Source: Pseudomonas furukawaii
GTDB lineage: Bacteria; Pseudomonadota; Gammaproteobacteria; Pseudomonadales; Pseudomonadaceae
Assembly (NCBI RefSeq): GCF_002355475.1
Contig: NZ_AP014862.1
Span: 3,410,001 to 3,474,000 of the forward strand
Direction of reading: 5' to 3'
Length of the DNA stretch: 64,000 bases
Under the pieces are notes generated by a model. The model searched no databases. It was not told where the DNA came from and was given only the letters and a program-made list of their open reading frames with translations. This document shows, piece by piece, positions 25,802 to 43,251 of this stretch. The first letter of the stretch is position 1. Each line of letters starts with the position of its first letter. A program made the position numbers and the translations under genes.

Positions 25802-26518
25802 TCAGGCGGCGACGTCGCAGGGGGGGCCGGAGCGCCGCCAGCCCCGCCCGAACAGGGAAGCAAGCCCCTCCACCCGGGACCAGGGCGCGCTGAGCCATTC
25901 TTCCAGGGCCACATGGCTGTCGGCCCGGCAGCGCGTGTCCAGGCCGCAGCCCTGATAGAAGCGATTGACCACCTCGACCATCGCCTCACGCTCGTCCTCC
26001 ATGAGGAGGGCACCATGCACCAGCACCACCAGGCGCCCGTCGCCGGTACGCCGCCAGCGCTGGGCCGTCCCCACCAGCTTGCGCCGTCCCAGGGTGACGT
26101 TGAAGCGGCCGTCGCAGAAGGCCCCGGGCACCTCCCCCAGCCCGGGCACCAGGCCGAATCCGCGCAACCAGTCGCAGAGGGGCTCGCACAGTCGCAGGTA
26201 AGCGGCCTCGATGCGCTCCCGCTCGCCCTCCTCCGGTGGCAGCGCCACCGCCAGCGCGACGTTCAGCACCGCCGGCGACTGGGGCACCGGCTCGCCGCCT
26301 GTGTCCCGCAGCGCCACGGGCCAGCCCAGGGCGCCGCAGTCGGCTTCGGCCGCGAGGAAACCCGGCAGGCGCGCCAGTCGCCGGGGCATGACCAGCGCGC
26401 GATCCGTGGGGCGCCAGCACAGCAGCGCCCCGTCCACCTCGCCGGCATGCACCCGCGCCAGCAGCTGCCGCTCGGCCTCCAGGCCCGCCTCGACGCCGAG
26501 GCGCCGGGGCGCGCTCAT
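25802..26518 (-). CDS. Lipoate-protein ligase family protein linked to the dehydrogenase operon
   Basis: 238 residues of the biotin/lipoate ligase fold: ERQLLARVHAGEVDGALLCWRPTDRALVMPRRLARLPGF, RDTGGEPVPQSPAVLNVALAVALP (the RRxxGG-like substrate loop is RDTGGEPVPQ), PGAFCDGRFNVTLGRRKLVGTAQRWR. Its start overlaps the E2 stop (ATGA), so it is translationally coupled and probably lipoylates the free lipoyl protein encoded two genes upstream. Last gene of the leftward operon. Confidence 0.82.
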   Translation of the reverse strand: MSAPRRLGVEAGLEAERQLLARVHAGEVDGALLCWRPTDRALVMPRRLARLPGFLAAEADCGALGWPVALRDTGGEPVPQSPAVLNVALAVALPPEEGERERIEAAYLRLCEPLCDWLRGFGLVPGLGEVPGAFCDGRFNVTLGRRKLVGTAQRWRRTGDGRLVVLVHGALLMEDEREAMVEVVNRFYQGCGLDTRCRADSHVALEEWLSAPWSRVEGLASLFGRGWRRSGPPCDVAA

Positions 26519-27219
26519 GGCGCACCTCCCGCCTCGATGCAGGCGCACAGGGCGTCGAGGAAATCCGCCGCCGGCGCGCCGTTCACGGCGCGGTGGTCGA
26601 AGGTCAGCGACAGCGCGAGGTACTCGCGCTCCAGCAGCTCGCCGGCGGCGTCGCGTTCCAGTCGGCGCTGCACGCCGCCGATGCCGATGATGGCGACCTG
26701 GGGCACGTTGAGGATCGGCGTGAAGAAGCGCACCCGCGACAGCCCCAGGTTGGACACCGTCACCGTGGCGCCGGTCAGCTCGCGCACCGACAGCTTGCCC
26801 GCCTGAGCCTTGGCCAACAGCGCGCGGCGGGCCTCGGCCAGGCCCTCCGCGTCGAGCCGGTCGGCGTCGAACAGCGCCGGCGCCACCAGCAGGTCGTCGG
26901 GCAGCGGGATGGCCAGCCCCAGGTGCACCGCCGGGTGGCGGGTGATCTGGTTGTCCTCCAGGGTGGCGTTGAGCGCCGGGTGCGCCTTGAGGGTGGCGAC
27001 CACGGCGTGCAGCAGCAGGTCCTGCAGGGAAGCCTGGGCCCCGGCCGCCTTGAGGGCGGCGCGGCGTGCCTGCAGCGCCCCCAGCTCGCACTCGGCGTGG
27101 TGGGTGAGCTGCGCGGCGGTCTGCAGGCTCTCGCTCATCTTCGCCGCGATCATCTTGCGCATGCCCTTGAGCGGCAGCGTCACCGGGCCGGTCGCGACCG
27201 GCGCTTGCATCTGGCCCAT
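26515..27219 (-). CDS. 2-oxoacid/acetoin dehydrogenase E2 catalytic core, without lipoyl or subunit-binding domains
   Basis: 234 residues that correspond only to the acyltransferase domain: LKGMRKMIAAKMSESLQTAAQLTHHAECELGALQARR, then LQDLLLHAVVATLKAHPALNATLE, VTVSNLGLSRVRFFTPILNVPQVAIIGIGGVQRRL and SLTFDHRAVNGAPAADFLDAL. The usual DHRxxDG motif reads DHRAVNG here, with Asn for Asp. There is no lipoyl domain in this protein; one is encoded as a separate gene 4 bp upstream. The acyl acceptor is CoA. Complex formation with the E1 pair is inferred from the operon. Confidence 0.88.
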   Translation of the reverse strand: MGQMQAPVATGPVTLPLKGMRKMIAAKMSESLQTAAQLTHHAECELGALQARRAALKAAGAQASLQDLLLHAVVATLKAHPALNATLEDNQITRHPAVHLGLAIPLPDDLLVAPALFDADRLDAEGLAEARRALLAKAQAGKLSVRELTGATVTVSNLGLSRVRFFTPILNVPQVAIIGIGGVQRRLERDAAGELLEREYLALSLTFDHRAVNGAPAADFLDALCACIEAGGAP

Positions 27220-27223
27220 GGGC

Positions 27224-27457
27224 TCACTCCACCCGGGCGATGGTCGCGCCCTTGGCGACCACCGCGTCTTCGTCTTCTAGGATGCGCAGCACGCCGCTGG
27301 CCGGCGCCTCGATCTCGAACTGCGCCTTCTCGGACATGATCTCGGCCACCAGGTCGCCCTGGGCGACCTCCGCGCCGTCGCTGACCAGCCAGGAAGTGAT
27401 CACGGCTTCGGCATCGCCTTCCCAGAGGTCATCGGCAATCAGGATGGGGGTGGACAT
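27224..27457 (-). CDS. Free-standing lipoyl domain protein
   Basis: 77 residues: a single biotinyl/lipoyl domain (LIADDLWEGDAEAVITSWLVSDGAEVAQGDLVAEIMSEKAQFEIEAPASGVLRILEDEDAVVAKGATIARVE) with the modified lysine K44 in the MSEKA turn. It supplies the swinging arm for the E1-E2 reaction as a separate polypeptide. The gaps to both neighbours are only 3-4 bp, so it is a deliberate gene and not a decayed E2 fragment. Confidence 0.88.
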   Translation of the reverse strand: MSTPILIADDLWEGDAEAVITSWLVSDGAEVAQGDLVAEIMSEKAQFEIEAPASGVLRILEDEDAVVAKGATIARVE

Positions 27458-27460
27458 GGC

Positions 27461-28486
27461 TTACTCCTCGTTTTTCAGGGTCTGGTAGGCGGCGACTATC
27501 TTCGCCGCGCTGGGCAACGCCCACTGCTCCATGGGCGGGGTGAAGGGAATCGGGATGTCCGGGAAGGCCACGCGCTGGGGGCTGGCCTTGAGCAGGCGGA
27601 CGTCGTGCTCGACGACGCTGGCGATCACCTCGCCGCTGACGCCGAAGCTGTGGTAGTCCTCGTCGATGACGATCAGGCGGCCGGTCTTCTTCACCGAGGC
27701 GATGACGTGCTCGCGGTCCAGCGGCACCAGGCTGCGCAGGTCGATGACCTCGGCGCTGACACCCTGCCGCTCCAGCTGCTGGGCGGCGCGCAGGGCGTGG
27801 TGAACGCCGGCGCCCAGGCTCACCAGGGTGACGTCGCGCCCTTCGCGCACGGTCTTCGCCTTGCCGATCTCGATGACGTAGGGCTCCTCCGGCACCGCGA
27901 CGGTGGCGCCCTTCTCGGTGCCCAGCCAGCCCATGCCCTGCAGGGACTTGTGGAAGAGGTAGACCACCGGGTTGTCGTCGCGGATGGCGGCGGTCATCAG
28001 GCCCTTGGCGTCATGGGCGTTGCTCGGCACCACCACCTTCATGCCCGGCAGGTGGGCGAAGGTGCCGTAGAGGCACTGGGAGTGCTGGCCGGCGTCGGAA
28101 TAGCCGGCGCCGGTGGAGGCCATCAGCACCATGGGCACCTTCACCCGTCCGCCGGAGAAGTAGGTGTTCTTCGCCATCAGGTTGTAGATGGCGTCCATGC
28201 AGACGCCGAAGAAGTCGACGAACATCAGCTCGACGATGGGCCGCATGCCGTCGGAGGCGGCGCCCACGGCGGCGCCGATGAAGGCGGTTTCGGAAATCGG
28301 CGTGTCGCGCACCCGCTCCCCGCCGAATTCCTCGTACAGGCCCCGGGTATTGCCGAAGACCCCGCCGAGCTGGCCGATGTCCTCGCCCATGACGAAGACC
28401 CTCGGGTCCAGGCGCATTTCCTGGGCCACCGCCTCGGCCATGGCGCGGGCGATGGTGAGTTTGCGTTCTTTTACTGACGTGCTCAT
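27461..28486 (-). CDS. Acetoin/pyruvate dehydrogenase-type E1 beta subunit
   Basis: 341 residues matching E1 beta (AcoB-like): TIARAMAEAVAQEMRLDPRVFVMGEDIGQLGGVFGNTRGLYEEFGGERVRDTPISETAFIGAAVGAASDGMRPIVELMFVDFFGVCMDAIYNLMAKNTYFSGG, and IDLRSLVPLDREHVIASVKKTGRLIVIDED. With E1 alpha it forms the thiamine diphosphate-dependent enzyme that cleaves acetoin or decarboxylates an oxoacid. GGAATCGCCGTG precedes the start. Confidence 0.9.
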   Translation of the reverse strand: MSTSVKERKLTIARAMAEAVAQEMRLDPRVFVMGEDIGQLGGVFGNTRGLYEEFGGERVRDTPISETAFIGAAVGAASDGMRPIVELMFVDFFGVCMDAIYNLMAKNTYFSGGRVKVPMVLMASTGAGYSDAGQHSQCLYGTFAHLPGMKVVVPSNAHDAKGLMTAAIRDDNPVVYLFHKSLQGMGWLGTEKGATVAVPEEPYVIEIGKAKTVREGRDVTLVSLGAGVHHALRAAQQLERQGVSAEVIDLRSLVPLDREHVIASVKKTGRLIVIDEDYHSFGVSGEVIASVVEHDVRLLKASPQRVAFPDIPIPFTPPMEQWALPSAAKIVAAYQTLKNEE

Positions 28487-28501
28487 CACGGCGATTCCTG
28501 T

Positions 28502-29491
28502 TCAGACGAAAACGAAGTCCAGCGCCTCTTCAGGCGCCGGGTAGGCACTGTCGCGGGCGAACTGCACGGCGGCGTCGACGCGGCCCCGGGCGACTTCCTC
28601 GAGGCCGGCCAGGACGGAATCGTCGGCCACGCCCAGGTCCAGCAGGCGCTGGCGGTAGGCCGGGATCGGGTCCTTTTCCTGCAACGCGGCCTTCTCGCCG
28701 GCGGGGCGGTAGGTCTCGCCGTCGCCCATGAAGTGGCCGGCCAGGCGCGAGGTTTCCAGCTCCAGCAGGCTCGGTCCTTCGCCGGCCCGGGCCCGGGCGA
28801 TGGCCTCGCCGGCCGCGGCGAAGATCGCCTCCGGGTCGTTGCCGGGCACGAAGACGCCGGGCATGCCGTAGGCGGCGGCGCGCACGGTGTTGCGCTCGAT
28901 GGCGGTGGACGCGGCCTTGGCCACCGAGATGCCCCAGGCGTTGTCCTCGATCACGAAGACCACCGGCAGCTTCCACAGGGCCGCCAGGTTCAGGGCCTCG
29001 TGGAAGGCGCCCTGGTTGGCCGCGCCCTCGCCCAGGTAGGCGACCGCGACCCCCGGCTTGCCCTGCAGTTGCCGCGACAGCGCGGCGCCGACGGCCGGGC
29101 CCAGGCCCTGGGCGATGATCCCCGAGCAGGCGAAGTTCACCCGCTCGTCGAACAGGTGCATATGACCGCCCCGGCCACCGGCGAGCCCGGTCTTCTTGCC
29201 GAAGATCTCGGCCACCATTTCGTCGAGGTCCACCCCCTTGGCCACGGCGATGTGGTGCGGTCGGTGGGTGGCGGTGACGATGTCACCGGCTTCCAGGTGG
29301 GCGCAGACGCCCACTGCGCAGGGCTCCTGGCCGTTGGACAGGTGCATCTCCCCGGGAATGGGCCCGTTGGCCATGTTGAAGACCGGGGTCTTGCCTTCCA
29401 TGTAGATGCGTTCGATGGACTCCTCCAGGTAACGGCTGACGAGCATCTGCTCGAACATCCAGAGGCGCTGGGCGTTGGTGGGTGCAGTCAT
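28502..29491 (-). CDS. Acetoin/pyruvate dehydrogenase-type E1 alpha subunit
   Basis: 329 residues. The thiamine diphosphate motif is GEGAANQGAFHEALNLAALWKLPVVFVIEDN, and HLSNGQEPCAVGVCAHLEAGDIVTATHRPHHIAVAKGVD and FGKKTGLAGGRGGHMHLFD are typical of the AcoA/PdhA family. The spacing of 15 bp to E1 beta indicates cotranslation. AcoA-like identity is favoured by the AcoR-type activator next door, but an acetoin substrate is inference. Confidence 0.9.
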   Translation of the reverse strand: MTAPTNAQRLWMFEQMLVSRYLEESIERIYMEGKTPVFNMANGPIPGEMHLSNGQEPCAVGVCAHLEAGDIVTATHRPHHIAVAKGVDLDEMVAEIFGKKTGLAGGRGGHMHLFDERVNFACSGIIAQGLGPAVGAALSRQLQGKPGVAVAYLGEGAANQGAFHEALNLAALWKLPVVFVIEDNAWGISVAKAASTAIERNTVRAAAYGMPGVFVPGNDPEAIFAAAGEAIARARAGEGPSLLELETSRLAGHFMGDGETYRPAGEKAALQEKDPIPAYRQRLLDLGVADDSVLAGLEEVARGRVDAAVQFARDSAYPAPEEALDFVFV

Positions 29492-29503: not shown

Positions 29504-31084
29504 TCAGAGGGCGCGCTGGTTGATCAGCGAGCCGATGTGCTCGGCCTGGCGCAGGGCCAGGGCGACGATGGTCAGGGTCGGGTTCTGCCCGCCGCTGGTG
29601 GTGAACTGGCTGCCGTCGGAAACGAACAGGTTGGGGATGTCATGGCTCTGCCCCCACTTGTTCACCACGCCGTCGGCGGCCTTGGCGCTCATGCGGTTGG
29701 TGCCCATGTTGTGGCTGGCCGGGTAGGACGGCAGGCGGATCACCTCGGTGGCGCCGACCGCCTCGTAGCACTTGCGGGTCTGGGCCACGCCGTGGTCGCG
29801 CATGGCGACGTCGTAGGGGTGGTCGTCCTTGTGCACCACCGGGACCGGCAGGCCGTACTGGTCCTTCTCGGTGCCGTGCAGGGTGATGCGGTTGCTCTCC
29901 ATGGGCAGGTCCTCGCCGCACAGCCAGACCCCGGACATATGGTCGTAGCGCTCCATGCGCGAAGCGAAGCCCCGGCCCCAGCCCTGGGGCGTCGGGTCGA
30001 GGAAGGCGGACATGAAGGGCAGGCCGAGGGAGAGGATCTCCAGCCGGTAGCCGCCGACGAAGCCCCGCGAGGTGTCGTTGTAGGACTCGTCGGAGATGAT
30101 CCCCGCGCAGGTGGTGCCGCGGTACATGTGCACCGGCTTGGGCATCACCGCGTAGATGCCGGCGGTGGTGTGGCACATATAGTTGCGCCCCACCTGGCCG
30201 GAGGAGTTGGCCAGGCCGTCCTTGAACATCGACGACTCGGAGTTGAGCAGCAGGCGCGGCGACTCGATGGAGTTGCCGGCCACGCACACCACGCGAGCCT
30301 TCTGCCGCTGCTGGCGACCCTCGGCGTCGGCGTAGACCACACCGGTGACGCGGCCACGGGCGTCGTGCTCGATGCGCAGGGCCATGCTCTGCGGCCGCAC
30401 CTCGCAACGGCCGGTGGCCTCGGCGCGGGGGATGTCGGTGTAGAGGGTCGACCACTTGGCGCCGATGCGGCAGCCCTGCATGCAGAAGCCGATCTGCATG
30501 CAGCCCGGGCGTCCGTCGTAGGGCTGGGTGTTGATCGCCATCGGCCCGGACTGGATCTCCTTGTAGCCGAGGCGCTGGGCGCCGGTGGCCAGCACCTTGA
30601 AGGAGTTGTGCCACTGGTGGTACGGCATGCCGGTGCTGGGGCCGGTCACGCCCATGTGGCGCTCGGCCCTCACGTACCAGGGCTCCATCTCCGCGTAGGT
30701 CACCGGCCAGTCGAGCAGGTTGGCGCCCTTGATGTCGCCGTTCTCGGTGCGCATGCGGAACTCGAAGTCGCGAAAGCGCAGGGCCACGCCGGCCCAGTGC
30801 ACCGAACTGCCGCCCACCGCCTTGACGATCCAGGCGGGCAGGTTCGGGTGGTTGCGGGCCACGTCCCAGCCCCCGGTGGCGATGCGTTTGTCGAGCCAGG
30901 AGATCTTGTTGAACATGGCCCATTCATCGTTCTCGATGTCGCTCATCTCGTAGCGCTTGCCGGCCTCCAGCACCACCACGCGGATGCCCTGGCGCGCCAG
31001 GGCGTGGGCCAGGGTGCCGCCGCCGGCGCCGGAACCGATGATGACGACGACATCGCCGTCGTCCTGGGAGAATTTCGATGCCAT
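29504..31084 (-). CDS. GMC-family oxidoreductase (gluconate-2-dehydrogenase-like large subunit)
   Basis: 526 residues with the FAD loop VVIIGSGAGGGTLAHALARQGIRVVVLEAG, VGGSSVHWAGVALRF, VCVAGNSIESPRLLLNS, and the C-terminal HNMGTNRM and NLFVSDGSQFTTSGGQNPTLTIVALALRQAEHI (catalytic His/Asn region). This is the branch of membrane-associated alcohol/sugar dehydrogenases whose partner is a Tat-exported small subunit; that partner is the gene just upstream. It has no signal peptide itself. Start ATG with GAGGG eight bases upstream. The substrate is unknown, probably an alcohol or polyol. Confidence 0.88.
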   Translation of the reverse strand: MASKFSQDDGDVVVIIGSGAGGGTLAHALARQGIRVVVLEAGKRYEMSDIENDEWAMFNKISWLDKRIATGGWDVARNHPNLPAWIVKAVGGSSVHWAGVALRFRDFEFRMRTENGDIKGANLLDWPVTYAEMEPWYVRAERHMGVTGPSTGMPYHQWHNSFKVLATGAQRLGYKEIQSGPMAINTQPYDGRPGCMQIGFCMQGCRIGAKWSTLYTDIPRAEATGRCEVRPQSMALRIEHDARGRVTGVVYADAEGRQQRQKARVVCVAGNSIESPRLLLNSESSMFKDGLANSSGQVGRNYMCHTTAGIYAVMPKPVHMYRGTTCAGIISDESYNDTSRGFVGGYRLEILSLGLPFMSAFLDPTPQGWGRGFASRMERYDHMSGVWLCGEDLPMESNRITLHGTEKDQYGLPVPVVHKDDHPYDVAMRDHGVAQTRKCYEAVGATEVIRLPSYPASHNMGTNRMSAKAADGVVNKWGQSHDIPNLFVSDGSQFTTSGGQNPTLTIVALALRQAEHIGSLINQRAL

Positions 31085-31127
31085 GAAGTCAGCCCTCGTT
31101 CTTGCTGTTGTTGTCGGGTCGCACGGC

Positions 31128-31646
31128 TCAGAGCCAGTCGATGTCGTTGAAACCACGGGACAGGTAGCCGCCCTTCTCCACCGACGAGCCCTCGTAGCCG
31201 AACAGCGGGAACAGGGTCTTGTTGTCGTAGAGGCCGAACATCAGGGCGCTGCGGGTTTCGCGGAAGAAGGGCGTGGTCTCCACCTCCCGCAGCAGCGCGA
31301 CCCGGTCGTCCTCGCTGGCGATGTCTTCGTAGGCGCGGCCATGGACGGCCCGCGCCCGCGCCTGAAGCGCCTCGAGGCCGTCCCGCACCAGCGCCGGCTG
31401 CTTGTCCAGCAGCTCGAACAGCGACTTGGCGTAGGGCGCATCGCCCAGGCGGTCGTGGGGATAGATGTCGCGGCCCATGCGCAGCAGGCCGGCCGGCAGC
31501 TTCGGCAGCACCTCGTCGGCGATGGCGGTGACGGGAATGAGGGAGCTGGTCACGGCGCTGGCGCCGAGGATCAGGGCGGATTGGCCCGACAGGCTGAGGA
31601 AGCGCCTGCGGCTGAGCGCGGTGCCCATGGGCGATGAGTCATGCAT
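31128..31646 (-). CDS. Gluconate 2-dehydrogenase subunit 3 family protein, Tat-exported
   Basis: 172 residues. The N-terminus has a twin-arginine signal (LSRRRFLSLSGQSALILGASAV) followed by the small-subunit pattern LPAGLLRMGRDIYPHDRLGDAPYAKSLFELLDKQP and ETRSALMFGLYDNKTLFPLFGYEGSSVEKGGYLSRGFNDIDWL. In the family this subunit carries the flavoprotein across the membrane. The usual third gene, a cytochrome c subunit, is absent here. It is the first gene of the operon; the sigma-54 promoter lies about 110 bp upstream. Confidence 0.87.
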   Translation of the reverse strand: MHDSSPMGTALSRRRFLSLSGQSALILGASAVTSSLIPVTAIADEVLPKLPAGLLRMGRDIYPHDRLGDAPYAKSLFELLDKQPALVRDGLEALQARARAVHGRAYEDIASEDDRVALLREVETTPFFRETRSALMFGLYDNKTLFPLFGYEGSSVEKGGYLSRGFNDIDWL

Positions 31647-31755
31647 GGCAGAACTCCAGGCTGGTGCCGGACCGCTCGGCAAGGTGGGAGCCTGGCGGTC
31701 CGGCGTTCATTGTTATCGTCGCGGAGCCTTGTTCGGCCCCTCGCCAACCTGGGGA

Positions 31756-31770
31756 GCAGCTTGCGTGCCA
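31756..31770 (-). promoter_or_regulatory. Sigma-54 (-24/-12) promoter of the dehydrogenase operon
   Basis: On the minus strand TGGCACGCAAGCTGC, with the invariant GG and GC separated by ten bases as sigma-54 promoters need. It lies 110 bp upstream of the first operon gene and about 92 bp downstream of the palindromic activator site. Confidence 0.8.
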
Positions 31771-31845
31771 AGCCCTCCATAAACTCTCAAGTCGTTGTTT
31801 TATAGGGATTTTTATTCAGAAGCGCAGCGCAGCGGGCCACGCATG

Positions 31846-31896
31846 CTGTAAAGCGCGGGCGTTACAGCTGTAAGGCGGGTGTCCGGGGGTTTACAG
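31846..31896. promoter_or_regulatory. Upstream activator sites: TTACAGCTGTAA with flanking half-sites
   Basis: The perfect palindrome TTACAGCTGTAA at 31862-31873 is flanked by half-sites CTGTAAA (31846-31852) and TTTACAG (31890-31896). The same palindrome occurs before the outer-membrane gene and the activator gene. It stands about 90-100 bp from the sigma-54 promoter, the usual enhancer distance for an AcoR-type activator. Confidence 0.72.
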
Positions 31897-31973
31897 GTGG
31901 GATGAGCGCAATGGAAGCCGCGAAAGGCGTGAACGGCCCACGGCACATCAGATCTCCGTTTCGCCACAGCCAC

Positions 31974-31995
31974 AAAAAAGGGGCCCGCAGGCCCC
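31974..31995 (-). terminator. Intrinsic terminator of the outer-membrane protein gene
   Basis: Read leftwards: the stem GGGGCC/GGCCCC with a short loop followed by six T residues, 24 bp after the stop codon of the outer-membrane gene. Confidence 0.85.
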
Positions 31996-32018
31996 AAGCA
32001 AGCGGACCGTCCGACCGC

Positions 32019-32942
32019 TCAGAACACCTGCAGCAGGCGGATGTTCAGCCTGTGATCTTCGCGAAAGCCGTTCTCCACCGCGAAATCCCGGCCATAGGTG
32101 GCCGCCACCTGGGTCTTCGGCAGGAAGAACCAGGAGAAGCCCAGGTTCCACTTGCCGGTCTCCTGGCGATCATCCAGCCAGAGATCCTCCACGCGACTCT
32201 CGCCACCATCCACCCAGGACAGGCCGGCTCGCAGGTCCACCGCCTCGCTCAGCTGGTAGCGCAGGAAGCCCTGGTACTGGTAACTGGGTTTCTGACGCTG
32301 GCTCCAGCGACCGCTGCCGTAGTGGTTGTTGCGGCCGTAGAACATCACATCGGCCGCCAGGTCCAGCGACAGCCGCTCGCCCAGGGGTTCCACGTAGCCC
32401 AGTTGCAGGTTGAGCTTCCAGCGGTTCTCCCCGAGGTTGAGCGCCTCGTCGTTGTCGTACTCGCCGAGCGGCAGGAACAGGTAGGGGGTGAAGCCCAGGT
32501 AACGGCCGCGCTCCGGCTGGTCGATGAACCACATCGGCATGGCCAGGATGGGGTCGGCCAGGCCGCTGGTATCCTCCAGCCCCCGGCGTCCGTCCAGGCG
32601 GCCGAAGGGCAGCAGCACCTGGGGCGCCACCCGCATACCGGCCAGCTCGGTGTAGTGGACCATCCGCAGGATGCCGATCTGCGAGTCCAGCCCCGGTGAG
32701 CCGGCCTGGCGGTCGCCCGCGCGGTAGAGGCGGTCACGCTCGGCGCCCTGGAGATAGAGCAGGCCCAGCGTGGTGCCGGCCGGCGCGGGCACGTAGTCCC
32801 CCGCGTCCAGGTCCAGCGCCGCGACGGGGCCGGGGCTGGAGAGCGCGCCGATAAGCAGGATCAGACCCCAGGCACTGGCCCAAGTCCGATTGTCGAGCGA
32901 CATCCGACCCGCCACGCGGGTCCTTTGGCAGTCAGGCAGCAT
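32019..32942 (-). CDS. Outer-membrane beta-barrel, phenol-degradation MetA/transporter-like protein
   Basis: 307 residues with an N-terminal signal (TWASAWGLILLIGALSSPGPVAALD) and a body of alternating amphipathic strands ending in the aromatic residue of LNIRLLQVF, typical for outer-membrane barrels. Patterns such as LDLDAGDYVPAPAGTTLGLLYLQGAERDRLYRAGD and ADPILAMPMWF match the MetA-pathway phenol-degradation transporter family (PF13557-like). The start could be the ATG here (GAGG seven bases upstream) or the one 39 bp downstream, nearer the signal. It has its own sigma-54 promoter and activator site, so it probably takes up the dehydrogenase substrate. Confidence 0.8.
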   Translation of the reverse strand: MLPDCQRTRVAGRMSLDNRTWASAWGLILLIGALSSPGPVAALDLDAGDYVPAPAGTTLGLLYLQGAERDRLYRAGDRQAGSPGLDSQIGILRMVHYTELAGMRVAPQVLLPFGRLDGRRGLEDTSGLADPILAMPMWFIDQPERGRYLGFTPYLFLPLGEYDNDEALNLGENRWKLNLQLGYVEPLGERLSLDLAADVMFYGRNNHYGSGRWSQRQKPSYQYQGFLRYQLSEAVDLRAGLSWVDGGESRVEDLWLDDRQETGKWNLGFSWFFLPKTQVAATYGRDFAVENGFREDHRLNIRLLQVF

Positions 32943-32996
32943 TGCGCATCCTCGTTTCTTGTTGTGCTGTCCCCGAAGGGGCCGGAGAGGCCTTCG

Positions 32997-33011
32997 GCAG
33001 CTTCCGTGCCA
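32997..33011 (-). promoter_or_regulatory. Sigma-54 (-24/-12) promoter of the outer-membrane protein gene
   Basis: On the minus strand TGGCACGGAAGCTGC, GG and GC ten bases apart. It differs at one base from the promoter of the dehydrogenase operon and lies 55 bp before the outer-membrane gene. Confidence 0.8.
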
Positions 33012-33097
33012 GCGCACCGGCAGGTGCCAAGCCATTGATCAGCCATGCTTTTTGCGAGGATTGCCGCCCGAGTGAAGTGTCCACGACTGTCCACCCA

Positions 33098-33109
33098 TTA
33101 CAGCTGTAA
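33098..33109. promoter_or_regulatory. TTACAGCTGTAA activator site between the outer-membrane gene and the AcoR-type gene
   Basis: Perfect palindrome TTACAGCTGTAA, followed by AAGGCGG exactly as in the copy at 31862. It is 87 bp upstream of the sigma-54 promoter of the outer-membrane gene and 157 bp before the activator gene on the other strand, so it could also serve autoregulation. Confidence 0.72.
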
Positions 33110-33265
33110 GGCGGACACCCGCGACCAAAGGGCAGGTGACGAGGCGGGGACTAAACTCGTAATGTGTCGGCAACCGTGCCAGCCCGCTCCCACGCGCTGC
33201 CACCTGAAAACAACAAGAACTTCACGGACGGATGGGCCCTCACCCCCACCGCCCCGGGAGGCCGC

Positions 33266-35215
<1,950 letters not shown>

Positions 35216-39258: not shown

Positions 39259-40416
39259 ATGTTCCGCTACTTCCCTACCAACTACGTCTGGAACCTCTCG
39301 GTGGACCTGGCCCTGGAAATGGGCGCGCGCATCGGTGAGATCGTCGAGATGTGCGAACCGCTGCAAGAGGCGGCCAAGCAGCCGGATGCCGCCGGTACCC
39401 AGGCCTTCCGCGAAACCTGGTCGAAGATGGCCGACAAGCTCTGCGACCTGGCACGCGAGGATGAGGAGAAAGGCCGCCTGCTCTCCGCCGGCGAAAAGTA
39501 CAACCGGGCCGCCACCTACTACCTCACCTGCGAGCGCTTGCAGGCCCACGGCGCCCCCGGTCGCCTGGAGCTCTACCAGCGCTTCCTGGAGACCTTCGCC
39601 CGGGGCATCGAGCTGTCCGGCGAGAACTGCGAGCGGGTCGAGATCCCCTACGAGGGCAAGGTCATCTCCGGCCTCTTCGTCCGCGCCGAAGGCGTCACCG
39701 GCCCTGCGCCCCTGCTGGTCCAGCTCAACGGCCTGGACTCCACCAAGGAAATGAAATACCGCGTTGGCCTGCCGATGTGGCTGGCCCGGCGCGGCGTGTC
39801 CTCCCTGGTGATCGACCAGCCCGGCACCGGCGAAGCCCTGCGCCTGCATGACCTGAAGGCCCGCTACGACGCCGAGCACTGGGGCAGCCGCGTCTTCGAC
39901 TGGCTGGAAACCCGCGAGGACGTGGACATCACCCGTGTCGGCTGCGAAGGGGTGTCCCTCGGCGGCTACTACTGCCCGCGCGTGGTCGCCTTCGAGCCGC
40001 GCTTCGCCTGCGGCGTGGTCTGGGGCGCCAACCACGACTGGCGCGAGGTGCAGAAACGCCGCCTGGAGCGCGAGGGCAGCTTCCCGGTGCCGCACTACTG
40101 GGAGCACGTGCGCTGGGTCTGGGGCGGCAAGGACATCGAATCATTCATGGCCATTGCCGAGAACGTCCATCTCGACGGCGTGGTGGAGCGCATCCGGGTG
40201 CCCTTCCTGGTCACCCACGGCGAGCAGGATTCGCAGATCCCGCTGAAATGGGCCCATCGCACCTACGAACAACTGGTCAACAGCCCCAAACGCGAACTGA
40301 AGATCTTCACCCCTCGCGAGGGCGGCGTGCAGCACTCCAGCTTCGACAACTCCATCAACGCCGGCCAGTACATCGCCGACTGGGTCGCCGAGACCCTTGG
40401 CGGCCGCACCGCCTGA
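39259..40416 (+). CDS. Alpha/beta hydrolase of the C-C hydrolase type (dihydroxypseudooxynicotine hydrolase-like)
   Basis: 385 residues: an N-terminal helical region (MFRYFPTNYVWNLSVDLALEMGARIGEIVEMCEPL) then the hydrolase core with PLLVQLNGLDSTKEMKYRVGLPMWLARRGVSSLVIDQPGTGEAL, nucleophile GVSLGGYYCPRV (Ser), acid THGEQDSQIPLKW (Asp) and GVQHSSFDN (His). The layout matches the large hydrolases that cleave C-C bonds in pyridine-type catabolism, FrsA-like. The start is ATG with AGAAGGAAAAC upstream. The enzyme likely acts after ring hydroxylation or cleavage. Confidence 0.85.
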   Translation: MFRYFPTNYVWNLSVDLALEMGARIGEIVEMCEPLQEAAKQPDAAGTQAFRETWSKMADKLCDLAREDEEKGRLLSAGEKYNRAATYYLTCERLQAHGAPGRLELYQRFLETFARGIELSGENCERVEIPYEGKVISGLFVRAEGVTGPAPLLVQLNGLDSTKEMKYRVGLPMWLARRGVSSLVIDQPGTGEALRLHDLKARYDAEHWGSRVFDWLETREDVDITRVGCEGVSLGGYYCPRVVAFEPRFACGVVWGANHDWREVQKRRLEREGSFPVPHYWEHVRWVWGGKDIESFMAIAENVHLDGVVERIRVPFLVTHGEQDSQIPLKWAHRTYEQLVNSPKRELKIFTPREGGVQHSSFDNSINAGQYIADWVAETLGGRTA

Positions 40417-40438
40417 CGACCGAGACGAGAACCCGACC

Positions 40439-41374
40439 ATGAAGATCATCGGACCCGATTACCTGGTGTTCGGCGTCGACGACGTCGACGCCTGCGTGCA
40501 GTACCTCACCGACTACGGCCTCAAGCCCCGCGATGTCGACGAAGCCGGCGGCTACCTGGAAGCCCTGGACGGCACCGGCATCCTCATCCGCCGACGCGAC
40601 GACCCGCGCCTGCCCGCCGCCATGGAGACCGCCAGCACCCTGCGCGAGACCGTCTACGGCGTGGCCGACGAGGCGACCCTGCAGGCCATCGAGGCCGAGC
40701 TGTCGAAGGACCGCAGCGTGACCCGTGGCGAGGACGGCGTGTTGCGCACCGTGGACGACCTGGGCTTCGCCCTGGGCTTTCAGATCAGCTGCCGCCGCCC
40801 CCTCGACCTGCCCGGGGAAATCAGCAACGCGCCGGGCGCCCGCGCCAGCCGCCCGCTGAACAGCCTGGGGGCCAGCGAGGAGATGCCCGCCCTGCCCCGC
40901 AGCCTGTCCCACGTGGTCTATTTCGTCCCCGACCATGCCCGGGGCGAAGCGTTCTACGCCCGCCTGGGCTTCGTCTGCACTGATCGTTTCATCGACGTCG
41001 GCCCCTTCCTGCGTCCGGCCGGCACCGAGGATCACCACACGCTGTTCCTGATCCAGACGCCGCCGTTCATGAAAGGCATCGAGCACTTCACCTTCCACAT
41101 GGGCGGCCCCACCGAAGTCATGCTGGCCGGCACCCGGTTCGTCGAGAAAGGCTACGAGTCCTTCTGGGGGCCGGGCCGCCACCAGCTGGGCTCCAACTGG
41201 TTCTGGTACTTCAACAGCCCCATGGGCTGCCATGTGGAGTACGACGCCGACATGGACCTGCACGACGACAGCTGGACCGCCCGTACCGCGCCGCCAGGGG
41301 CGGACAGCTCGCAGTACTTCCTCTTCCACTACCAGGAGAAGTGGGCCCCGGGAGGACCGCCGCCCAAGCACTGA
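40439..41374 (+). CDS. VOC-family ring-cleavage dioxygenase-like protein
   Basis: 311 residues with two vicinal-oxygen-chelate modules. The C-terminal half keeps the metal triad: His in LSHVVYFVPDHARGEAFYARLGF, His in TEDHHTLFLIQTPPFMKGIEHFTFHMGG and Glu in MGCHVEYDADMD. The N-terminal half lacks an equivalent His at its first strand (GPDYLVFGVDD). This is the extradiol-dioxygenase layout. It starts 22 bp after the hydrolase stop, so the two are cotranscribed. The combination with a flavin monooxygenase suggests an aromatic or N-heterocyclic substrate. Confidence 0.85.
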   Translation: MKIIGPDYLVFGVDDVDACVQYLTDYGLKPRDVDEAGGYLEALDGTGILIRRRDDPRLPAAMETASTLRETVYGVADEATLQAIEAELSKDRSVTRGEDGVLRTVDDLGFALGFQISCRRPLDLPGEISNAPGARASRPLNSLGASEEMPALPRSLSHVVYFVPDHARGEAFYARLGFVCTDRFIDVGPFLRPAGTEDHHTLFLIQTPPFMKGIEHFTFHMGGPTEVMLAGTRFVEKGYESFWGPGRHQLGSNWFWYFNSPMGCHVEYDADMDLHDDSWTARTAPPGADSSQYFLFHYQEKWAPGGPPPKH

Positions 41375-41622: not shown

Positions 41623-43182
41623 CTAAGTCTCGTCCTTCCCCAGGCCATGGAGCTTCAGCTTGTTGGCGATGGTGGTGTGGGACACGCCCAGCCGCTTGCC
41701 CAGCTGTCGGCTGCTGGGATGCTCGGCGTAGAGCCGCTCCAGCACCGCCTTCTCGAATCGGCCGACGATGGCGTCCAGCCCTCCTTCGAGGGAGAAATCC
41801 CCCAGGGGCTGGGGCGCGCCGTAGTCCGGCAGACGGATATGGTCCGGACGGACGGTACCGCCATCGCAGAGCGACACCGCCTGGAACAGCACGTTCTCCA
41901 GCTGCCGCACATTGCCCGGCCAGTGGTAGTTGCCCAGCTTGTCCAGCACCTGGGGCGCCAGCTTCGGCAGGCCGCAACCGATCTGCCGGCTCGCCGAGTC
42001 GAGGAAGTGCTCCACCAGCGGCGCCAGGCCATCCAGGCATTCCCGCAGCGGCGGGATATGCAGGGACAGCACGTTGAGTCGGTGATAGAGGTCCTGGCGG
42101 AATTCGCCACGGGCGCAGAGTTCCGACAGGTCCACCTGGGTGGCGCAGATCACCCGCACGTCCAGGTACACCTCCTCGTCGCTGCCCACCCGACGGAAGC
42201 AGCCGTCCTGCAGGAAGCGCAGCAACTTGGCCTGCAGGCGCGGGCTCATCTCGCCGACGCCATCGAGGAACAGCGTGCCGCCGGCGGTCAGCTCCAGCAG
42301 CCCCAGCTTGCCCTCCGGCCGGGCACCCTCGAAGGCGCCTGGGCCGTAGCCGAAGAGTTCGGTCTCGGCCATGGATTCCGGCAGGCCGGCGCAGTTCAGC
42401 GCCATGAAGGGCGACTGGCCACGCGGACTGGCCAGGTGGCAGGCGCGGGCCAGCAGCTCCTTGCCGGTACCGGTCTCGCCCTCGATCAGCAGCGGCGCAT
42501 CCAAGGGGGCCATGCGCCGCGCCTCGCGGACCACGGCGGCCATTACCTTGGAGCTCTGGAAGATGCTGTCGAAGCCGCGCAACTCATGCTTGCGCACGTT
42601 GTAGATGCGCTCCCCCACGCGGTCCGCCCGGTGCAGGGTGAGCACGGCACCGGCCAGGGCCTCGCTCTCGTCATGCTCGGATTGCAGCGGCGCGATGTCG
42701 GCGAGGAAGGTGTCGCCCTTGATCTTGATGCGCAGGCCATTGATTCGCGCCTTGTTGGCCCGCACCAGTTCCGGCAGGTCGAAATCGTCCACGTAGCGCG
42801 ACAGCGGGATCCCCGGCACCTCGTCCACCCGCACCCCCAGCAGTTGGGCGGCGGCACGGTTGGCGGCGACGATGGAGCCCCCCATGTCGATGGACAGCAC
42901 CGGAAAATCCAGCGCCCCCAAGAGGGCGTTGAGTTCCAGGTGGCGCCGCTCGCTGGGCATCAGGCCCACGCGCTTGACGCCGAAGACGCCGGGGATGGCC
43001 TCCAGCTTCGGCCGCAGGGACTGCAGTTGCAGGTTGATCAGGTTCGGGCACAGCAGGTAGATGGCATTGCCCTGGTCGCCGCCGACTTCTCCGCGATTGA
43101 CGTTGATGCCGTAGTCGACGAGCAGGTTGAGGATGTCGCGGAGGATTCCCACGCGGTTCTGGCAATGGACTTTGATACGCAT
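41623..43182 (-). CDS. phhR: Aromatic amino acid regulator PhhR (TyrR family)
   Basis: 519 residues: an N-terminal ACT domain (MRIKVHCQNRVGILRDILNLLVDYGINVNRGEVG), a PAS domain (LSIDMGGSIVAANRAAAQLLGVRVDEVPG), an AAA+ domain with GETGTGKE, and the C-terminal HTH (SSRQLGKRLGVSHTTIANKLKLHGL). The sigma-54 loop GAFTGA is GAFEGA and Walker B reads FLDGVGEM, as expected for TyrR proteins, which work with sigma-70. It activates the divergent phhABC genes in response to phenylalanine or tyrosine. The start is the ATG after AGGGGTGCCTG. Confidence 0.95.
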   Translation of the reverse strand: MRIKVHCQNRVGILRDILNLLVDYGINVNRGEVGGDQGNAIYLLCPNLINLQLQSLRPKLEAIPGVFGVKRVGLMPSERRHLELNALLGALDFPVLSIDMGGSIVAANRAAAQLLGVRVDEVPGIPLSRYVDDFDLPELVRANKARINGLRIKIKGDTFLADIAPLQSEHDESEALAGAVLTLHRADRVGERIYNVRKHELRGFDSIFQSSKVMAAVVREARRMAPLDAPLLIEGETGTGKELLARACHLASPRGQSPFMALNCAGLPESMAETELFGYGPGAFEGARPEGKLGLLELTAGGTLFLDGVGEMSPRLQAKLLRFLQDGCFRRVGSDEEVYLDVRVICATQVDLSELCARGEFRQDLYHRLNVLSLHIPPLRECLDGLAPLVEHFLDSASRQIGCGLPKLAPQVLDKLGNYHWPGNVRQLENVLFQAVSLCDGGTVRPDHIRLPDYGAPQPLGDFSLEGGLDAIVGRFEKAVLERLYAEHPSSRQLGKRLGVSHTTIANKLKLHGLGKDET

Positions 43183-43251
43183 CAGGCACCCCTGTTTCGG
43201 GCTTTTTCCTTGGGGAGTCGATGAAAGAATCCGTTCATGACCCACTTTTTC

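Follow-up and report, generated by a model that had tools for sequence, protein, structure and literature searches.

Two identical palindromes in Pseudomonas furukawaii, one upstream of a dehydrogenase operon and one upstream of an outer-membrane protein (OMP) gene, lie close to a gene for an AcoR-type sigma-54 activator, which raises the question of whether they are the enhancers (UASs) through which that activator would switch on both transcription units. The window analyzed here is the whole 64,000-nucleotide stretch of contig NZ_AP014862.1 from position 3,410,001 to 3,474,000, and coordinates are those of the window unless a genome is named (Table 1). On the sequence evidence we put the probability at roughly 0.88 that the palindromes are UASs of the adjacent activator and drive both sigma-54 promoters, with binding and activation as the predicted steps. 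The enhancer is real and conserved and is newly delineated here, and its regulator is of a known kind that belongs to an ordinary type of bacterial control.

Table 1. Features of the locus, with positions in the window
Feature	Position	Strand	Remark
UAS 1 palindrome TTACAGCTGTAA, dehydrogenase operon enhancer	31862..31873	.	kept in orthologues
UAS 2 palindrome TTACAGCTGTAA, between OMP gene and regulator gene	33098..33109	.	kept upstream of orthologous OMP genes (L014, L016, L017, L028)
Degenerate second site TCCCACCTGTAA (3 mismatches; one half-site intact), 29 bp upstream of UAS 1	31891..31902	-	same-offset site in relatives
Isolated half-site TTTACAG, promoter side of UAS 1	31846..31852	-	TTTACA half-sites partly conserved at similar places in relatives
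Dehydrogenase operon -24/-12 element TGGCACGCAAGCTGC, 91 bp from UAS 1	31756..31770	-	GG-N10-GC
OMP gene -24/-12 element TGGCACGGAAGCTGC, 86 bp from UAS 2	32997..33011	-	GG-N10-GC
IHF-like site between UAS 1 and promoter, AAACAACGACTTG, one mismatch to WATCAANNNNTTR	31788..31800	-	corresponding position in orthologues
IHF-like site between UAS 2 and promoter, GATCAATGGCTTG, one mismatch to WATCAANNNNTTR	33028..33040	-	
AcoR-type sigma-54 activator (GAF, AAA+ with GTFTGA loop, Fis-type HTH)	33266..35215	+	Pfam domains
OMP gene, Phenol_MetA_deg family	32019..32942	-	PF13557 2.8e-32
Small twin-arginine (SRRRFLSLSG) protein, operon gene 1	31128..31646	-	Pfam: no match
FAD dehydrogenase of the GMC family, related to the large subunits of fructose/glucose dehydrogenases	29504..31156	-	7w2j 1.5e-55; 6a2u 6.5e-52
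2-oxo acid/acetoin-type dehydrogenase E1 alpha	28502..29491	-	
E1 beta	27461..28489	-	
Separate 77-aa lipoyl-domain-like protein (...EIMSEKAQFEIEAPASG...)	27224..27457	-	family by eye
E2 acyltransferase core without own lipoyl domain	26515..27219	-	PF00198 2e-56
Lipoate-protein-ligase-like gene (lplA), last operon gene here	25802..26519	-	family by eye

A scan of the window returned the two 12-letter copies at exactly the positions of the original prediction, each followed directly on the forward strand by GGCGG, which makes a 17-bp exact repeat (TTACAGCTGTAAGGCGG) common to both UASs. They are the only window sites within two mismatches of the palindrome (0.25 expected). The genome search for copies near -24/-12 sites, which had been proposed as a check, gave the same answer, with the exact palindrome standing only at the two window promoters in all 6,242,949 bp and the relaxed form TTACASSTGTAA at the same two places only in the 6.24-Mb genome. 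Of three further genomic sites with one mismatch, none has a convincing -24/-12 element, and they were therefore left out of the regulon. The degenerate second site of Table 1 has a counterpart with the same 29-bp offset in several same-genus relatives, for example L014 with one mismatch. Next to each UAS lies an 11-bp stretch (31875-31885 and 33112-33122), and one of the two, GCGGGTGTCCG, is the exact reverse complement of the other, CGGACACCCGC.

Both GG-N10-GC elements are also where they had been predicted, on the minus strand from 31770 to 31756 and from 33011 to 32997, and the genome has an RpoN gene, the other requirement of a sigma-54 promoter. The 92 and 87 bp originally given as their distances from the palindromes hold as coordinate differences but not as gap lengths, the intervening bases numbering 91 and 86. 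Taken alone, -24/-12 elements are no more frequent in the window than chance would give (10 with up to two mismatches against 13.4 expected in such GC-rich DNA), and the weight of these two comes from their combination with the palindrome and from the conservation of that combination. An IHF-like site, defined as WATCAANNNNTTR with at most one mismatch, lies between the UAS and the -24 element in 42 of 64 distinct promoters, both window promoters included, against 7.2 expected from resampled sequence, a ratio that is not a formal p-value, as it rests on related promoters. These sites nearly always have one orientation and typically lie about 30 bp upstream of the -24 element (40 bp in Stutzerimonas). 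Helical phasing of the gap between UAS and promoter (80/90/101/112/125) was suggestive but weak among unique values (R about 0.23-0.31) and was set aside; the OMP promoter, with its 86-bp gap, departs from the more frequent 80/90/101 spacing by roughly half a turn of the helix.

For the comparison with orthologues, loci were fetched with the GMC protein as query; public genomes gave 80 and the window's genus another 8 (window copy included), and 47 of a Pseudomonas/Stutzerimonas/Halomonas-type group, with 42 distinct sequences, formed the orthologous upstream set. Of these 47 operon promoters, 45 have a TTACA-SS-TGTAA palindrome with no more than one mismatch. The counts are not independent, since the loci with the regulator all fall in a single broad clade. 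The exceptions are L030, with two mismatches, and L048, with four, where the regulator is present (64% identity) yet only half a palindrome remains. In each locus a TGGCAY-type GG-N10-GC element follows, 81-145 bp farther downstream. The ten outer positions of the palindrome carry 1.7-2.3 bits and the two central ones about 0.7, while most flanking columns stay below 0.6, except for a G two positions beyond the palindrome and, 10-20 bp upstream, weak second half-sites rich in A/T. The consensus UAS is TTACASSTGTAA, with GG, CC, GC or rarely AC at its center. Regulator identity in the group is 64-86% over the aligned part (73% and up in Pseudomonas/Stutzerimonas), for loci with the regulator on the same fetched stretch; in some it lies beyond. 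The palindrome was found with up to one mismatch in none of the 41 other dehydrogenase loci (450 bp examined in each), which have the same enzyme at 58-72% identity and a regulator that is out of reach or at most 52% identical. This comparison had been set beforehand as one that could overturn the original prediction, and it went in its favor, as the palindrome is conserved with a -24/-12 element downstream and tracks the adjacent activator. The concrete binding motif that had been announced is likewise conserved, with a consensus relaxed to TTACASSTGTAA and the activator as its putative ligand.

The same data bear on whether the promoters might be independent of sigma-54 and the palindrome a repressor operator on sigma-70 promoters, a reading that the chance abundance of GG-N10-GC elements in this GC-rich window would allow. 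We consider it very unlikely, as no sigma-70-like promoter was found in 31000-33500, and the -24/-12 elements 80-145 bp below the UAS persist in practically all orthologues despite diverged surroundings. The enrichment of IHF-like sites and the linkage to a sigma-54 activator also speak against it.

Which protein binds the UAS is suggested by the recognition helix of the regulator, which reads SRPTxYR, after W-N-[VI]-S-A, in all motif-bearing loci with a readable HTH. Where the regulator beside this enzyme is 49-52% identical, the helix reads CRATVYR, CRATIYR or ARATVYR and the palindrome is absent. It is mainly this covariation of helix and motif, together with adjacency and genome-wide clustering, that points to the neighboring regulator as the probable binder. 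Among 148 genomes of the family, 21 gave a strong regulator match, 20 of them at 74% identity or more (the window's own included) and one at 54%. At least one exact TTACASSTGTAA occurs in 19 of these 20; it was not found in the other one (G147) or in the genome with the 54% regulator. By a count from two tables, the 19 genomes hold 41 motif sites, of which 38 are on the operon contig or no more than about 12 kb from the regulator.

Sporadic motif copies occur in 25 of the 127 genomes without a strong regulator match; where fetched, several are REP-like and the rest scattered, and nearly all are without a good -24/-12 element. In the same-genus loci L117, L119, L120 and L122, around position 1501, TTACAGCTGTAA forms part of a dispersed REP-like repeat (AGGAAGCGGAGTTTACAGCTGTAAA...; GAGGAAGCGGAGTTTACAGCTGTAAA...), which can mislead motif searches. 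The exact 12-mer within such repeats could mean that the palindromes are only pieces of them, or chance repeats, with no regulatory role. We find this barely credible for the window sites, which have no REP-like flanks and are the sole two in their genome, and whose counterparts in diverged relatives stand ahead of the same genes, with fixed arms around a variable center.

It is also conceivable that another regulator binds the palindrome and that the neighboring activator uses other sites. A TyrR/PhhR-type regulator is encoded in the same window (41623-43245, minus strand; TyrR model 1.9e-161), and the genome holds a second AcoR-like activator (C1:777989-779923) that is 45% identical to the one here. 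The TyrR box is TGTAAA-N6-TTTACA, and a reminiscent TGTAAA-N4/5-TTTACA stands beside the palindrome in some relatives. This TyrR-like arrangement varies in spacing, however, whereas the invariant part is TTACASSTGTAA, and across genomes the motif clusters at the neighboring regulator gene and covaries with its HTH. The paralogue at 777989, for its part, has a different helix, ISRNTLYR, and we regard binding by another regulator such as these two in place of the neighboring activator as unlikely. The TyrR/PhhR-type gene adjoins a plus-strand gene (40397-41374) whose product resembles, by eye, 4-hydroxyphenylpyruvate dioxygenase.

Further targets appear when relatives are considered. A UAS with a GG-N10-GC element precedes the OMP gene in L014, L016, L017 and L028, and also a VOC-family gene in L014, with copies in L017 and L028 that have weaker sigma-54 elements by eye. 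In L107 and L108 the VOC gene, again with both elements, is divergent from the regulator, and the OMP gene comes next in L108; the VOC gene was not found in the genome studied here. Four Pseudomonas relatives have lplA under its own UAS and sigma-54 promoter (L019 at 11566, L020 at 13237, L021 at 13189 and L044 at 9325), each time divergent from a lipoyl-synthase-like gene, which suggests that lipoate supply is tuned to the dehydrogenase complex. The small regulon of the original prediction stands for the two window promoters and their probable tie to the adjacent activator, and in relatives it is wider, with lplA and the VOC gene as further members.

The regulator, for which the ATG at 33266 is the preferred start from the conserved N-terminus, has an N-terminal GAF domain (PF01590, 6.2e-12), a sigma-54 AAA+ domain (PF00158, 1.9e-67) and a C-terminal Fis-type HTH (PF02954, 4.3e-11). 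Its sigma-54 contact loop, ESELFGYQPGTFTGARSKG, is of the GAFTGA type but reads GTFTGA (GSFTGA in some orthologues), with the F and T intact. This domain set, with a conserved UAS ahead of the -24/-12 promoter of the adjacent genes, is that of an AcoR-like EBP. In the operon, position and signal make the twin-arginine protein a likely small subunit for the flavin dehydrogenase. The E2 core (234 aa) and lipoyl domain (77 aa) are separate proteins (26515-27457, minus strand), the usual E2 being fused, and no close second copy of E1 beta was found in the genome.

AcoR clusters of P. putida and P. aeruginosa serve 2,3-butanediol and acetoin (PMC8427195, PMC8694187, PMC10943186). E1 alpha, E1 beta and E2 genes are present here, and relatives carry inside the operon a zinc alcohol dehydrogenase (Pfam ADH_N/ADH_zinc_N), butanediol-dehydrogenase-like by eye. 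These genes point most probably to a pathway for 2,3-butanediol/acetoin or a similar diol/ketol. As no butanediol-dehydrogenase-like gene was found in this genome, the first oxidation may be carried out by the periplasmic flavin dehydrogenase. The GAF domain of the activator would sense a small alcohol or ketol, most likely acetoin, 2,3-butanediol or similar, and its Fis-type HTH would bind TTACASSTGTAA, aided by neighboring half-sites. IHF would then bend the DNA between enhancer and promoter, the AAA+ domain would open sigma-54 RNA polymerase at the -24/-12 elements, and the flavin dehydrogenase/E1-E2-lipoate operon would be switched on together with the outer-membrane protein.

A search of the main texts in an open-access library gave only unrelated matches for a description of the palindrome, and no matching motif for Pseudomonas AcoR in open-access papers on AcoR, butanediol or sigma-54 regulons. 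We tentatively propose, at somewhat less than even odds, that the locus represents a distinct AcoR-type subgroup with the helix SRPTxYR and an undescribed abutting palindrome, TTACASSTGTAA, serving a diol/ketol pathway where a GMC flavin dehydrogenase in the periplasm takes the place of the cytoplasmic butanediol dehydrogenase or adds to it, with co-induction of an outer-membrane channel and lipoate attachment. In Pseudomonas and Halomonas-type bacteria the motif is a concrete, testable candidate binding site of an activator of the AcoR type, tied to specific helix residues. It brings an unassigned periplasmic flavin dehydrogenase and an outer-membrane protein into one catabolic regulon, and could serve as a part for a small diol/ketol biosensor.

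Three known kinds of system resemble this locus. In FAD-dependent fructose/glucose dehydrogenase complexes (7w2j, 6a2u) the GMC large subunit is homologous over most of its length and a small twin-arginine protein likewise precedes the GMC gene, but a cytochrome c subunit gene is absent among the operon genes examined here, and E1/E2 genes are linked. Most published UASs lie 100-250 bp from the promoter, and many motifs of clostridial sigma-54 activators have the form TGT-N10-12-ACA (PMC6615313). As here, the clostridial motifs come from comparative genomics, sites are multiple and the regulator mostly adjoins its target; in contrast, the half-sites here abut (TTACAS/STGTAA) with the arms in the opposite direction. 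The third kind are the AcoR-type activators of 2,3-butanediol/acetoin catabolism (P. aeruginosa PA4147, P. putida PP0557 and B. subtilis AcoR), which also join an N-terminal sensor to a sigma-54 AAA+ domain and a Fis HTH and whose genes also adjoin E1/E2 genes, with a butanediol-dehydrogenase-like gene in relatives of the present locus, a resemblance at the family level. Unlike those systems, this one shows no acoX, its operon begins with the twin-arginine partner and the periplasmic GMC flavin dehydrogenase, and its regulon takes in an outer-membrane protein and a lipoate ligase.
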